A stretch of DNA of 64,000 nt from Pseudoalteromonas espejiana DSM 9414. GTDB lineage: Bacteria; Pseudomonadota; Gammaproteobacteria; Enterobacterales; Alteromonadaceae. The position numbers and the translations under genes were made by a program. The stretch spans positions 3,235,001 to 3,299,000 of the forward strand of contig NZ_CP011028.1 of assembly GCF_002221525.1 (NCBI RefSeq). Direction: 5' to 3'. How positions within the stretch are numbered: the first letter of the stretch is position 1; each line of letters opens with the position of its first letter. The notes under the pieces are model-generated. The model had not been told where the DNA came from, did not search any database, and saw only the letters and a list, made by a program, of their open reading frames with translations. This document shows positions 20,068 through 25,365 of the stretch, piece by piece.

Positions 20068-20113
20068 CACAGTGAATAACAAATCAACTCATAGTTTGAA
20101 AAAATTCACTGTG
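20068..20113. repeat. perfect 10-bp inverted repeat at the fbpC stop codon
   Basis: CACAGTGAAT (20068-20077) and ATTCACTGTG (20104-20113) flank a 26-nt spacer containing the fbpC stop codon. On the minus strand the hairpin would form in the transcript between fbpC and the DyP homologue and is followed by a short TTTT. It could attenuate or stabilise; the function is unknown. Confidence 0.5.
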
Positions 20114-21138
20114 TGCGGTTTTATTTTTATTATAACCGACTCATTAATATCAAATGATTGGCCATATTGAGCGGCAACTTCAATTTCTTGCTCTGCAATA
20201 ATTAAACTGTAAATATAAGCAGAGCCAATAAAGCGCTGGCTAAGTATTTTAGCTGTATAAGCAGCACTTGTTTGCCCATTGTGCTTGTGTAATTCAATGT
20301 GGTGCGGTCGAATATATATTTGTCCAATATTTGAATTATCACTGTGCTCATTAAACGATTTAACAACCCCTAAAGGTGTTTGGTATTCAGCTGCTGTTAA
20401 CACTTTTGCGCTTAAGTATATGCCCTGACCAAGAAATTCTGCAACCACCTTTGAACTTGGCATTGAAAAAAGCTGCTCAGGCGTACCGTGCTGAACAATT
20501 TTTCCACTACTCATAATTGCTAACGTGTCTGAAAACGCAAATGCCTCTTCTTTTGAATGTGTTACAAACACAGCTGAAACTTTTGCCGCCTTTATAATGC
20601 GCCGAATATCTGCAATTAGCTCAAAACGCACCAGTGGGTCTATATTCGAAAATGGCTCATCAAGTAACAATAAACTCGGCTTATAGGCAAGTGCACGCGC
20701 AATAGCTACGCGCTGTTGTTGACCACCTGAAAGTTGATGAGGATATCTATCACCGCAGTCTTCTAGATGCACCAGCTTTAGCATCTCATTAACGCGTGTT
20801 TGCTTTTGTAGTTTAGTTGCTTTATCGAGCCCAAAAGCAATATTACTTGCCACTGTTAAATGAGGAAATAGCGCATAATCTTGAAACATCATACCAATAT
20901 TTCTATGCTCAGGCGGTGTAAAAGTTTGCTCGTCGCTTACAAGCTGTCCATCAACAAAAATACGTCCTTGTTTTGCCTCTAGCACACCTGCGATGGCTTT
21001 TAAGGTGGTCGTTTTACCACAGCCGCTAGCACCAAGTAAGCATACAATTTCATTTTTACCTACGGTTAAGTTTAAGCCGTCTATAACCGGTGTATCGTTA
21101 TAGTAGTAACTCACATTTTGTAAAACTAAACTGCCCAT
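20089..21138 (-). CDS. fbpC: ferric-iron ABC transporter ATP-binding protein (FbpC-like)
   Basis: This 349-residue ATPase powers uptake through the adjacent permease. Walker A is GASGCGKTT (near 36-44), the signature is LSGGQQQRVAIARA (near 136), and Walker B is LLLLDEPFSNID. A C-terminal TOBE-like regulatory domain (residues 235-349) resembles the FbpC/PotA subgroup. The start directly abuts the fbpB stop, so the genes are translationally coupled. The assignment to iron rests on the substrate-binding protein of the same operon. Confidence 0.88.
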   Translation of the reverse strand: MGSLVLQNVSYYYNDTPVIDGLNLTVGKNEIVCLLGASGCGKTTTLKAIAGVLEAKQGRIFVDGQLVSDEQTFTPPEHRNIGMMFQDYALFPHLTVASNIAFGLDKATKLQKQTRVNEMLKLVHLEDCGDRYPHQLSGGQQQRVAIARALAYKPSLLLLDEPFSNIDPLVRFELIADIRRIIKAAKVSAVFVTHSKEEAFAFSDTLAIMSSGKIVQHGTPEQLFSMPSSKVVAEFLGQGIYLSAKVLTAAEYQTPLGVVKSFNEHSDNSNIGQIYIRPHHIELHKHNGQTSAAYTAKILSQRFIGSAYIYSLIIAEQEIEVAAQYGQSFDINESVIIKIKPHTVNFFKL

Positions 21139-22770
21139 TTAACTGCGTGACTCCATAGAACGATTAATAAAATATAAAGGCACTAAGCCAACAACAACAA
21201 TTAATAATGCAGAAAGAGAAGCCAGCTCAAGCTGCTCATCACTCACATACTGAAAAACATGGGTCGCTAAACTTTCAAAATTAAAAGGTCTAAGTAATAA
21301 GGCGGCAGGAAGTTCTTTCATACATTCAATAAAAACAAGTAGTGCTGCAGTTAAAATACCTCGTCGTAACAAAGGTAAATGCACTAACCTCAAAGTTTGG
21401 CTCTGGCTTTTACCCATAGATTGGCTTGCCATATCAAGCGAGGGGCTAATACGTACAAAGCTAGACTCAATAGCGCCATGCGCAATAGCATAAAATCGAA
21501 CGACATAGGCAATAATAATAGTAACTATGCTACCGGTTAACAATAAGCCAATATTTAAATGGTAAGGCTCAAGCATAGTGTTTAAAGCGTTTTCAATGAG
21601 TGTAAGCGGTAATAGTACTGCAATGGCTAATACAGTACCTGGTAAGGCGTACCCTGTACTTGCTAACCGACCTGGTATTAAAGGGTGGGCTTGTTTTGCA
21701 ATTCGCTGATAAAAAACAACAAAAACACTTAATACAATTGCTATCACACTAACAATTGTGGCAACTTTTAGACTTTGCCATGCATAGCTTAAAAGCGCAT
21801 TACTCCATATGCTATCAAAATAAGTAACTGCGTAACTCAATAATACAGCCACAGGTAAAACAAAGGCGATTGCTAAAATAAAACTACAAAATAAAGTAGC
21901 GAACCAAGCAGATTTACCTCTTAACTGATAAAGCGCTTCGCTATTAACACTTGTTTGACGCTCAAATACCGCTTGATCTCGACGACTAAAACGCTCCGTA
22001 ATTAATGCTAAGAATAAAAGTAATAGCATGACTCCAGATATTTTTGCTGCCGCAGTAAGTGAGTAATAACCAAACCAAGTGTCGTAAACAGCGGTTGTAA
22101 GGGTGCTTACGGCAAAATAGCTCACAGTGGCAAAATCAGCCATGGTTTCCATGCTAATAAGAGCAAGCGCAGCAACAATTGCGCCACGAGAAAGAACCAA
22201 ACTTACTTTATAAAAGCTGCGTGAAGGTGAAAGCCCCATAAGCTGACTAGCTTGTACAAGTTTAAATGACTGCTCGCGTAGTGCGGTTTTAAAAATTAAA
22301 AATAAATAGGGGTATAACACTAACGACAACATCACAATTGCCCCTGGCAATGTTCGTATATCAAAAAACCAATAATCATCTGGCGATTGCCAACCAAACC
22401 ATTGTCTAAGCGCTATTTGTACAGGGCCTGCATAATCAAGTAAGTCGGTATAAACGTATGCAATAATGTAAGTTGGCATTGCAAGTGGCAGCATTAACGC
22501 CCATTCAAACTGCCTTTTACCAGGAAAATGGCAGTATGCTGTTAGCCAACCAAGAGGAAGAGCAATAAAACAGCTGAGAAAGCACACACCAAAAATAAGT
22601 ACAACGGTGTTAAAAATATAATCCCATAAAACAGTGTTCCAAAGGTGTATAAATACCTCTGAATCACCCTTTAACGACTCAACGACTAAAAAGAATAATG
22701 GCGCCGATAACAACAGCCCCACTAACCAAGCAAAGAGCTGCCATTTAGACAGCTTAAATTTATCGCTCAT
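21139..22770 (-). CDS. fbpB: ferric-iron ABC transporter permease (FbpB-like)
   Basis: This 543-residue inner-membrane protein has about twelve hydrophobic segments in two homologous halves, each with a binding-protein-dependent transport signature (EAA-loop-like region around GLSPSRSFYKVSLVLSRGAI and SMGKSQSQTLRLVHLPLLRRGI). The fused double permease is typical of Fbp/Fut/Sfu iron systems. Its ATG overlaps the fbpA stop by one base (TAATG). Confidence 0.88.
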   Translation of the reverse strand: MSDKFKLSKWQLFAWLVGLLLSAPLFFLVVESLKGDSEVFIHLWNTVLWDYIFNTVVLIFGVCFLSCFIALPLGWLTAYCHFPGKRQFEWALMLPLAMPTYIIAYVYTDLLDYAGPVQIALRQWFGWQSPDDYWFFDIRTLPGAIVMLSLVLYPYLFLIFKTALREQSFKLVQASQLMGLSPSRSFYKVSLVLSRGAIVAALALISMETMADFATVSYFAVSTLTTAVYDTWFGYYSLTAAAKISGVMLLLLFLALITERFSRRDQAVFERQTSVNSEALYQLRGKSAWFATLFCSFILAIAFVLPVAVLLSYAVTYFDSIWSNALLSYAWQSLKVATIVSVIAIVLSVFVVFYQRIAKQAHPLIPGRLASTGYALPGTVLAIAVLLPLTLIENALNTMLEPYHLNIGLLLTGSIVTIIIAYVVRFYAIAHGAIESSFVRISPSLDMASQSMGKSQSQTLRLVHLPLLRRGILTAALLVFIECMKELPAALLLRPFNFESLATHVFQYVSDEQLELASLSALLIVVVGLVPLYFINRSMESRS

Positions 22771-23774
22771 TAAAGGTCGAATTTAACTTCGTCAATTAAT
22801 TTAAGTGCCACAGAACGATATTTACTAACTTCATTTAAAGGTAGGTTATCTTCTTTAAAACTCCCCCAAGATGCCACTAAGCTAGAAAGCTCAACGCCTG
22901 GCTTTACAGGGTATTCCATATTAACTGATGCATATGTATTTTGAGCCGTAGTGTCTGTCATATATTCGATTAGCTTTAATGCATTATCAGGGTTTTTGGC
23001 ATATTTAGTAATAACGACACCTGATACATTAATATGTGAACCACGGTTTGTTTGATTAGGAAAATTAATATTTACCGCTTCGGCCCACGCTCTCTGATCT
23101 TTATTTTCGATCATTTTGCCAAGGTAATAGCTATTACCTAAAGCTAAATTACACAGCCCTTCTTTTACCGCTTTTACTTGAGCTCGGTCATTACCTTGAG
23201 GCTTGCGCGCAAGATTTGCTTTAACACCTTCAAGCCATACTTTAGCTTTTTCCTCACCGTGGTGCGCTACCATAGAGGCAATTAAACCTAAGTTATATGG
23301 GTGTTTACCTGAGCGAGTACAAATTTGCCCTTTAAATTTTGGATCGGCTAAATCTTCGTAGGTTAGTTCAGCAAGTGGGCCTACGCGCTCTTTTGATGAA
23401 TACACATTGCGAACACGTTTTGTTAGAGCAACCCATTGCCCGTTTTCATCGCGAAAAGAAGCCGGTACGTTAGCATCAACATGCTCGCTTTTTATTGTCT
23501 GAGTTAATTTAAGGTCTTCTAATTGAATAAGCGCACTAAAGTTAGATGTTAAAACTAGATCTGCTTTACTATGTTTACCTTCACGCTTTACACGTTCAAT
23601 TAACCCTTTTTTTGCAAAAACCACATTAGTTTTAATGCCAGTTTGCTCAGTAAAGTCATTTAAAATTGGCTGAATCAAATAAGGTTGACGAAAAGAGTAT
23701 ATATTTACAACATCGCTTGCAAAAGCAGGCGTAGCAGTGATTAAACCTAAAATTATAGCGAATATTTTTTTCAT
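22770..23774 (-). CDS. fbpA: ferric-iron ABC transporter substrate-binding protein (FbpA/FutA-like)
   Basis: This periplasmic binding protein has 334 residues from the ATG at 23774. MKKIFAIILGLITATPAFA is a clean signal peptide, and a slightly longer upstream frame is not needed. The NSYYLGKM segment carries the twin tyrosines that coordinate Fe(III) in FbpA/FutA proteins; VVNIYSFRQPYLIQP is the conserved N-terminal strand. With fbpB and fbpC it forms an operon for TonB-independent transfer of periplasmic ferric iron. A half-conserved Fur box lies just upstream. Confidence 0.9.
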   Translation of the reverse strand: MKKIFAIILGLITATPAFASDVVNIYSFRQPYLIQPILNDFTEQTGIKTNVVFAKKGLIERVKREGKHSKADLVLTSNFSALIQLEDLKLTQTIKSEHVDANVPASFRDENGQWVALTKRVRNVYSSKERVGPLAELTYEDLADPKFKGQICTRSGKHPYNLGLIASMVAHHGEEKAKVWLEGVKANLARKPQGNDRAQVKAVKEGLCNLALGNSYYLGKMIENKDQRAWAEAVNINFPNQTNRGSHINVSGVVITKYAKNPDNALKLIEYMTDTTAQNTYASVNMEYPVKPGVELSSLVASWGSFKEDNLPLNEVSKYRSVALKLIDEVKFDL

Positions 23775-23886: not shown

Positions 23887-23904
23887 TGTAAGAGATCTCT
23901 TACG
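23887..23904. promoter_or_regulatory. GacA/UvrY-type upstream activating site for csrB
   Basis: TGTAAGAGATCTCTTACG matches the GacA-family box TGTAAG-N6-CTTACA at 11 of 12 specified bases and contains a 16-bp perfect palindrome. It lies about 175 bp upstream of the predicted csrB start, the distance commonly seen for GacA-controlled Csr/Rsm sRNAs. Confidence 0.8.
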
Positions 23905-24049: not shown

Positions 24050-24055
24050 TATAAT
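24050..24055 (+). promoter_or_regulatory. -10 element of the csrB promoter
   Basis: A perfect TATAAT at 24050-24055 is placed so that transcription would begin near 24062. No good -35 hexamer exists at 17 bp, which fits an activator-dependent promoter served by the box at 23887. Confidence 0.65.
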
Positions 24056-24061
24056 TACTAC

Positions 24062-24533
24062 ATCAACCAAGCAGTGATGCTTACCGAGTAAATGGAAATG
24101 GATTGCTTACTCGAACAACCAATGATTAGGTTATTACGGAAAACACGGAAACTAGGACAGACTCAGGATGAGTATCGCAATGGATTGTTGCACAAAGGAT
24201 AGCATCAGGGTGATGCGAAAAGGATAACAACAGCGGATTGTTGTACAACAGGATGTTGCAGGAATAAACGGACAGGCCCTCGCGGCAACGCAATGGAGTT
24301 GTGATTTAACGGACTGCACTAGGAAGTGCGAATAGGATTAAGTAATAGATTTTACCATTACAGGATGTTTAAGGATTTAAGGGAGATAGGCCCGGATAGC
24401 CTAAATTACATAGAACTAAAAAGTAATATCGTAATAACATGGATAAGTAAAAATTGGAGTTGATTAAGTTCAATTGCAGGATGCAAAATTAGAAGATTCC
24501 GCAAGCGCGCCTAGAGATAGAGCGCGCTTTTCT
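24062..24533 (+). ncRNA. csrB: CsrB-type regulatory sRNA that sequesters CsrA
   Basis: The stretch has no ORF but contains 24 GGA triplets between 24094 and 24481, against about seven expected by chance. Many sit in loops of short hairpins, as CsrA prefers. Examples are ACTC-AGGAT-GAGT (24161-24173), CAACA-GGA-TGTTG (24246-24258), GCACT-AGGA-AGTGC (24316-24329), TAGGC-CCGGATA-GCCTA (24387-24403) and TTGCA-GGA-TGCAA (24474-24486). It starts after a perfect TATAAT and ends in an intrinsic terminator. CsrB/RsmZ-class RNAs bind many CsrA dimers and relieve CsrA repression. At about 470 nt it is longer than E. coli CsrB (about 370). Exact ends are inferred. Confidence 0.88.
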
Positions 24534-24535
24534 TT
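24503..24535 (+). terminator. intrinsic terminator of csrB
   Basis: AAGCGCGC (24503-24510) pairs with GCGCGCTT (24522-24529) over an 11-nt loop and is followed by TTTTCTTT. Confidence 0.88.
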
Positions 24536-24622
24536 GCCCAAAATTTAGTGCTTTGCCTACTTAATGTTAAAGGTATGCAAGCGACTGATATCAATTAGCT
24601 TCGGCTCTTAAATGATTAAGTT

Positions 24623-24678: not shown

Positions 24679-25365
24679 CTATAACGGCCTACCCTTATTT
24701 CGCTTGCCGAGTAAATACGCATCACGAAACTTAATAAAGTGCTGCTCAAGCTTTGAGGCTGCATCTTGCTCCCCCGCCAGCGCGAGCACCATAATTCCTA
24801 CTTCCGCAGTCCCTAGCTGATAAGCATGCGGGGCAACGCGTAAACGATAATCTGAGAGCTTATCCGCAGTAATTGATAATACCGGTAAGTTGTCAAGGTA
24901 GGGGCTTTTTCGTATCATTTTTTTAGCTTCACGCCAGGTGCCATCTAAAAATATAAACAGTGGCTTTTTGCCGTGTTCAATATTGACCTCAGTGACTGCT
25001 CGGCCCTCTTGAACATCCTCTTGCGGAAATATCACCATAGGCTGGTATTGTGAATCGTTAATTAACTCTAAAAGTGCAGGATCAGGGTCTGTTCTATCCC
25101 ACCTAAACGCGTGGTTATCAGGTACTATTTGTGCAATTAAGCGCCCTGTATTCGACGGTTTAAAACTCTCGTTATGGTACATTAGTAAACACACTGCAGC
25201 ATCGCACTGAGCGTACTCAACCCCTTCACAAATACAGTAATGTTTGGCAATTAAACACTGCTCACAGCGGTCCATTTTACCACCGCGGGCATTAAATTCT
25301 CGTCGCGATTCGCTAATTTGCTGGGCGCGTAATGCCAGTACAGAGTTTTTAAAAGAATTGGCCAC
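24679..25365 (-). CDS. tapT: tRNA-uridine aminocarboxypropyltransferase (DTW domain protein)
   Basis: The 228-residue protein matches the DTW-domain family whose E. coli member TapT (YfiP) transfers the 3-amino-3-carboxypropyl group of SAM to U47 of tRNA. Visible are N-terminal paired cysteines CEQC and CIC (near 34-50), the TGRLI segment, and FLDGTWREAKKM, the family DxTW region, followed by YRLRVAPHAYQLGTAE. The start is a GTG at 25365, chosen because the residues just after it align with the family N-terminus. An eight-copy heptamer tandem repeat begins 61 bp upstream and could alter expression. Confidence 0.86.
   Translation of the reverse strand: MANSFKNSVLALRAQQISESRREFNARGGKMDRCEQCLIAKHYCICEGVEYAQCDAAVCLLMYHNESFKPSNTGRLIAQIVPDNHAFRWDRTDPDPALLELINDSQYQPMVIFPQEDVQEGRAVTEVNIEHGKKPLFIFLDGTWREAKKMIRKSPYLDNLPVLSITADKLSDYRLRVAPHAYQLGTAEVGIMVLALAGEQDAASKLEQHFIKFRDAYLLGKRNKGRPL

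Follow-up and report, generated by a model that had tools for sequence, protein, structure and literature searches.

A predicted CsrB-type small RNA of Pseudoalteromonas espejiana, very probably the ortholog of Pseudoalteromonas fuliginea Pf2, at a conserved place beside a DTW-domain gene

The 64-kb window considered here (the whole stretch of DNA that was analysed) derives from the 4.5-Mb genome of Pseudoalteromonas espejiana, which is assembled in two contigs. It contains an intergenic region flanked by a solute-binding protein gene and a DTW-domain gene, both on the minus strand, and between them, on the plus strand and with the DTW gene convergent to it, lies a candidate small RNA. The solute-binding protein gene is part of an iron-type ABC transporter operon (ATPase, permease, and solute-binding protein) at 20089-23771 that heads away from the RNA. 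The features of the region are as follows:

22770-23771, minus strand: solute-binding protein gene of the iron-type ABC transporter (Pfam SBP_bac_6)
23887-23904, plus strand: GacA/UvrY-type box TGTAAGAGATCTCTTACG, with one mismatch to TGTAAG-N6-CTTACA
24050-24055, plus strand: -10 hexamer TATAAT, its letters kept in 30, 30, 26, 30, 24, and 29 of 30 aligned sequences (window included)
24062-24533, plus strand: predicted Csr-type small RNA, Pf2-like, with 24 GGA (from GGA count, folding, conservation, and covariation; RF00018 below gathering score)
24161-24173, plus strand: hairpin ACTC-AGGAT-GAGT with GGA in the loop (helix 4, 100% of cells paired in 24 sequences)
24202-24216, plus strand: hairpin GCATC-...-GATGC (helix 6, 100% of cells paired, two pairs with two-sided change)
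24316-24329, plus strand: hairpin GCACT-AGGA-AGTGC, a perfect 5-bp stem in the window (helix 9, 64% of cells paired)
24388-24402, plus strand: hairpin AGGC-CCGGATA-GCCT with GGA in the loop (helix 11, 100% of cells paired, three of four pairs with compensatory change)
24474-24486, plus strand: hairpin TTGC-AGGAT-GCAA with GGA in the loop, in the 3' part (helices 12 and 13, four pairs invariant in 24 sequences)
24503-24536, plus strand: intrinsic terminator (A)AGCGCGC...GCGCGCT followed by TTTCTTTG (present in the fold; helix 14)
24679-25365, minus strand: DTW-domain gene (Pfam DTW)

A preliminary description of this DNA had pointed to 24 GGA triplets in a gene-free stretch that ends in an intrinsic terminator, and all of this was borne out. 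The count for the 472 nt of 24062-24533 is exact (11 triplets occur as AGGA and 13 as ANGGA) and compares with means of 1.7 and 1.8 GGA per 472 nt on the plus and minus strands of the window, respectively; the next-best non-overlapping 472-nt stretches reach 7 (plus) and 8 (minus), the highest values elsewhere in the window on either strand. The longest open reading frames overlapping the stretch comprise 55 amino acids on the minus and 45 on the plus strand, and none longer than 55 amino acids lies between the solute-binding protein gene and the DTW gene. The terminator, a GC hairpin with a run of T, is paired in 96% of cells in 24 aligned sequences (window included); it was not listed by a simple consensus terminator scan of the plus strand, which we attribute to a loop longer than the scan allows.

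Upstream of the candidate RNA, the box at 23887-23904 was recognized by sequence match to TGTAAG-N6-CTTACA, which we take to be the GacA/UvrY motif, and its centre lies about 167 nt before the predicted start. This start would fall at about 24061-24063, as read off the position of the conserved -10 hexamer. The hexamer is absent from a consensus promoter scan of the window and no good -35 element was seen upstream of it, a poor -35 that would fit activated promoters. Across all 30 aligned sequences, 11 of the 18 box positions are identical, and in the spacer downstream of the box, up to the -10, just 30% of triplets are kept in the same sequences. With zero mismatches, the pattern GTRAGANATNTCTYAC occurs at a single place in the whole P. 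espejiana genome, namely the window box, and the zero-mismatch pattern is found at only two places in P. fuliginea KMM 216, the Pf1 locus and the ortholog of the window RNA (see below). When one mismatch was allowed, there were 2 and 2 matches in P. espejiana (1 and 1 for a control pattern read backward) and 2 and 2 in KMM 216 (4 and 4 for the control); since the relaxed pattern is no rarer than its control, only the zero-mismatch places point to the two loci. Further GacA-type boxes brought the number of places in the P. espejiana genome to four, including the window box (backward control: 2 and 0), a second box search yielded one additional partial match, and the loci at the four other box places (L002, L003, L005, and L132) carry at most 6 GGA per 450 nt.

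Sequence matches to the window RNA were obtained in 72 of 108 genomes of the genus, and conservation was counted in the 30 best-scoring loci among them (own included). Over the 29 best-scoring relatives, GGA cells are kept in 85% of cases as compared to 55% for 313 other triplets (those before 24495 that do not touch any GGA; Mann-Whitney p 1.7e-6, with triplets that are not independent of each other). Only a minority of the 29 relatives retain the three GGA at 24235 (10), 24335 (13), and 24373 (6). The claim that many GGA are presented in loops of short perfect hairpins holds in part and depends on the stem length demanded. If Watson-Crick stems must have 4 bp or more and loops no more than 9 nt, 9 of the 24 GGA are in loops, against a mean of 2.4 in shuffles with the GGA fixed (none of 500 attains 9); the number is 14 at stems of at least 3 bp and 6 at stems of at least 5 bp, and falls to a single one, the chance level, at 6 bp. 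When pairs are restricted to within 60 nt, the mean unpaired probability of the GGA is 0.72 versus 0.53 in shuffles (0 of 200 as high), and 21 of the 24 exceed 0.5. Conserved GGA lie in hairpin loops or single strands of the predicted fold, the overall energy of which is unexceptional (z -1.57; 8 of 100 shuffles fold as well).

The hairpins themselves were evaluated in an alignment of 24 sequences, that is, the window and 23 of the 29 other best-scoring loci; L008, L014, L015, L017, L023, and L024 were omitted, being taken as near-duplicates from their scores alone. Overall, of the 1444 cells of 61 hand-set pairs, 91.4% are paired, and 14 of the pairs have changed on both sides. Moving the partners by 1 to 3 columns lowers pairing to 29-44%, a sliding control in which the hand-set structure, having been taken from the window sequence, is favoured. 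In a shuffle control, which is free of this structure-choice bias but ignores relatedness, none of 500 shuffles did as well on four measures; 198 of 500 did so on the fifth, the number of further pair types, which is no higher than in shuffles. Among the 14 helices counted, pairing stays below 80% of cells in helices 5, 8, and 9, and the four invariant pairs of the hairpin at 24474-24486 neither support nor argue against pairing. RNAalifold, applied to the same alignment, predicted 68 pairs, 15 of them with two-sided changes and several in the same hairpins. The loop of the hairpin at 24202-24216 carries GGA in 18 of the 23 relatives and reads AGGGT in the window, so that one CsrA site has probably been lost in P. 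espejiana.

As regards classification, the Rfam check proposed at the outset gave a match, but one below threshold: the CsrB model RF00018 scores 28.7 bits at 24141-24539 (E 5.8e-6 on 901 nt), with a gathering score of 71. At gathering score, Rfam has no match in the window, in line with the expectation that standard annotation would miss the RNA. A whole-genome search with RF00018 up to E 10 listed the Pf1 ortholog (see below) and one weak 35-nt match (8.9 bits) and did not list the window locus. RsmZ-type families were not listed at the locus either, in a search where overlaps within a clan collapse to the best match and RF00166 is hence not scored apart. A Trp_leader match, likewise below threshold (19.8 versus 41 bits), was read as a shared terminator shape and set aside, and a BLAST search of the sequence against plasmid records gave no match. 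By function and anatomy, as judged from these sequence features, the window RNA is to be regarded as CsrB-type; by the Rfam threshold, it is not a member of RF00018. The CsrB RNA of Escherichia coli, about 370 nt long, shares with it the repeated GGA in hairpin loops, the UvrY box upstream, and the intrinsic terminator, whereas the window RNA is longer (about 475 nt), has a lower GGA density, and stays below the Rfam cut-off. Of the earlier statement that it exceeds E. coli CsrB in length and GGA richness, the first part accordingly stands, and the second does so by count (24 versus 22 GGA; PMC11882849) but not by density. The CsrB-C analogs Aln1a-c of Alteromonas macleodii Te101, a member of a related marine genus, are similar by description only, being reported to bear A(N)GGA in single-stranded regions (PMC5864184).

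The genome also appears to encode the proteins with which such an RNA would operate. It contains one csrA and, among 76 response-regulator matches, one regulator above the curated cut-off (393 bits) of NCBIfam NF007018, which we take to be the UvrY/SirA/GacA model. In addition, a second GGA-rich RNA at C1:1339934-1340411 (25 GGA in 481 nt) is 81% identical to the Pf1 locus of P. fuliginea and is, on this likeness, the Pf1 ortholog; compared with each other by blastn, the two GGA-rich RNAs of P. espejiana share matches of at most 22 nt (best E 0.009). Parts of a complete Csr circuit, i.e., CsrA, a GacA/UvrY-family regulator, and at least two sponge RNAs, are thereby indicated in P. espejiana. 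Together with the box, the GGA conservation, the covarying hairpins, and the terminator, the csrA and UvrY/GacA-family genes support the initial suggestion of a CsrA-sequestering RNA, and the window RNA very probably sequesters this regulator protein. Mechanistically, phosphorylated GacA/UvrY would bind the box at 23887-23904 and activate the promoter at 24050; the resulting RNA, ending at the terminator at 24503-24536, would expose many GGA in hairpin loops and single-stranded stretches, bind several CsrA dimers, and thus free CsrA-repressed mRNAs, presumably alongside at least one further such RNA, the Pf1 ortholog.

RNAs of this kind have already been described for P. fuliginea, a sister species. 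Wen et al. (2023, PMC9927453) reported Pf1, with the box CGTGAGACATCTCTTACA and 21 GGA, and Duan et al. (2025, PMC11882849) added Pf2 and Pf3 in strain BSW20308. The available text of the latter gives 25, 21, and 9 GGA for Pf1, Pf2, and Pf3, respectively, and the printed counts for Pf1 itself thus differ between the two papers. According to the same text, Pf1-Pf3 are the top CsrA RIP-seq peaks, and CsrA binding and relief of CsrA control are described for all three; for Pf2, which lies between D172_RS02375 and D172_RS02370, promoter activity, CsrA binding by EMSA, an effect on glycogen, and enrichment in CsrA RIP-seq were shown, and in a figure legend, Pf2 and Pf3 are marked as having the conserved upstream sequence of the CsrB family (PMC11882849). 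The literature matches listed included no earlier account of this locus.

P. fuliginea KMM 216 has an ortholog of the window RNA (L018/L057) that is 80% identical and carries 23 GGA (24 in the conservation count, where the piece runs past the terminator). The Pf1 box CGTGAGACATCTCTTACA occurs exactly once in KMM 216, at another locus (L041) whose RNA has 25 GGA, as stated for Pf1 in 2025, and the Pf1 locus is therefore not the window locus. Given 23 GGA, the zero-mismatch box, and the zero to four GGA of the other CsrA-bound small RNAs of P. fuliginea (PMC11882849), we take the ortholog to be Pf2, an assignment that is almost certain and was made by these properties rather than by comparison to the Pf2 sequence itself. 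Its count is distinct from those of Pf1 (25) and Pf3 (9) and near, not equal, to the published 21, which refers to another strain (BSW20308) and to ends that may be set differently. This small discrepancy would also suit a fourth Csr RNA of the genus, i.e., a working CsrA sponge overlooked in 2025 that is not Pf2. Such a scenario seems improbable, as, apart from Pf1-Pf3, every RNA on the RIP-seq list in the available text of that paper has at most four GGA, as the two zero-mismatch boxes of KMM 216 belong to Pf1 and the window-RNA ortholog, and as the upstream CsrB-family sequence is marked for Pf2 and for Pf3, the latter with 9 GGA only (PMC11882849). We thus consider it very likely that 24062-24533 on the plus strand yields a CsrB-type small RNA of about 475 nt that is the ortholog of Pf2. 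Like Pf2 of BSW20308, it is intergenic, located on the first chromosome, and endowed with about 20 or more GGA, a conserved CsrB-type upstream sequence, a promoter, and a terminator, and differs from it in species and GGA count (24 versus 21; PMC11882849); with Pf1, it shares the design and the probable function (PMC9927453), though it occupies another locus. The window RNA is not new, its counterpart in P. fuliginea almost certainly being the published Pf2; it is real, ordinary for its class, and already in print for the genus.

That the RNA sits between two genes, and that GGA sites generally also regulate mRNAs, might suggest that the conserved GGA belong to the untranslated region or leader of an adjacent gene instead of a free small RNA. 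With both neighbours on the minus strand and the RNA on the plus strand, where a box, a -10, and a terminator of its own precede the convergent DTW gene, we regard this as highly unlikely. That the GGA arise through codon or composition bias in a simple repeat or in a gene for a small protein, an alternative for which the short plus-strand reading frames of up to 45 amino acids could be cited, can practically be dismissed in view of the lengths of gap runs (18 of the 229 counted against 23 relatives are multiples of three), the covariation of the stems, a GC content of 41%, and a search for a tandem array that found none in the stretch.

To the published Pf2-type small RNAs, the present analysis adds a modest observation, namely a GGA cluster beside the DTW gene at all 60 loci where the DTW and transporter genes adjoin. 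Searching with the DTW protein gave 72 loci (L054-L125), all from Pseudoalteromonas (P. prydzensis HyVt-346 twice) in a scan that reaches close relatives only, and 60 of them also carry the solute-binding protein gene. On the strand expected for the RNA, their clusters contain 13-33 GGA per 450 nt (median 24; at least 20 in 54 of the 60), as compared to peaks of 4-13 (median 7) on the opposite strand, and a strict GacA-type box is nearby in 55 (the exceptions being L103, L109, L114, L117, and L124). The 12 loci devoid of the solute-binding neighbour are exactly those devoid of the cluster (at most 11 GGA), although two of them, L060 and L071, end 88 and 488 nt past the DTW gene and could hardly show one. 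At E 1e-3, blastn with the window sequence matched 33 of the 60 loci (the match exceeded 400 nt in 24 cases and spanned just 55-107 nt in 9) and none of the 12; the 27 loci it missed include those of P. luteoviolacea, P. rubra, and P. amylolytica. A search of 295 genomes of the family with the 3' 111 nt matched 13 genomes, 12 of them in the genus (own included); the single match outside (L153, 34 nt), with 7 GGA per 450 nt and hence no cluster, and with no box, was put down to chance.

With a cluster in 60 of 60 loci, of which blastn detects 33, the RNA was probably already present in the ancestor of much of the genus. We think it likely that RNAs of the Pf2 type go back to an ancestral Csr sponge and have kept a fixed position between the DTW gene and the iron-transporter gene in most Pseudoalteromonas, among them the luteoviolacea, rubra, and piscicida groups, where searches by sequence detect few matches or none. 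The positional orthologs were recognized by their location, strand, number of GGA, and box. Pf2-like sequences have been reported, by similarity, in 303 of 672 Pseudoalteromonas genomes (PMC11882849), a figure that the 27 positional orthologs missed by blastn suggest to be too low, bearing in mind that the published sample consists of strains and ours of one genome per species. If the ancestral reading is true, the published distribution of 45% is an underestimate, and the sequence turns over while GGA load, box, and place stay. The positional orthologs form a natural series in which to follow how the function of a sponge RNA may survive changes in its sequence. In practical terms, coordinates are now supplied for an RNA overlooked by Rfam-based annotation, and searching by neighbouring genes would help to close this annotation gap for the genus. 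A further observation concerns the second sponge RNA of P. espejiana: the GacA-type box of its Pf1 ortholog reads CGTGCGATATATCCTACA in place of the CGTGAGACATCTCTTACA of P. fuliginea, and GacA control of this RNA may therefore be weakened in P. espejiana.
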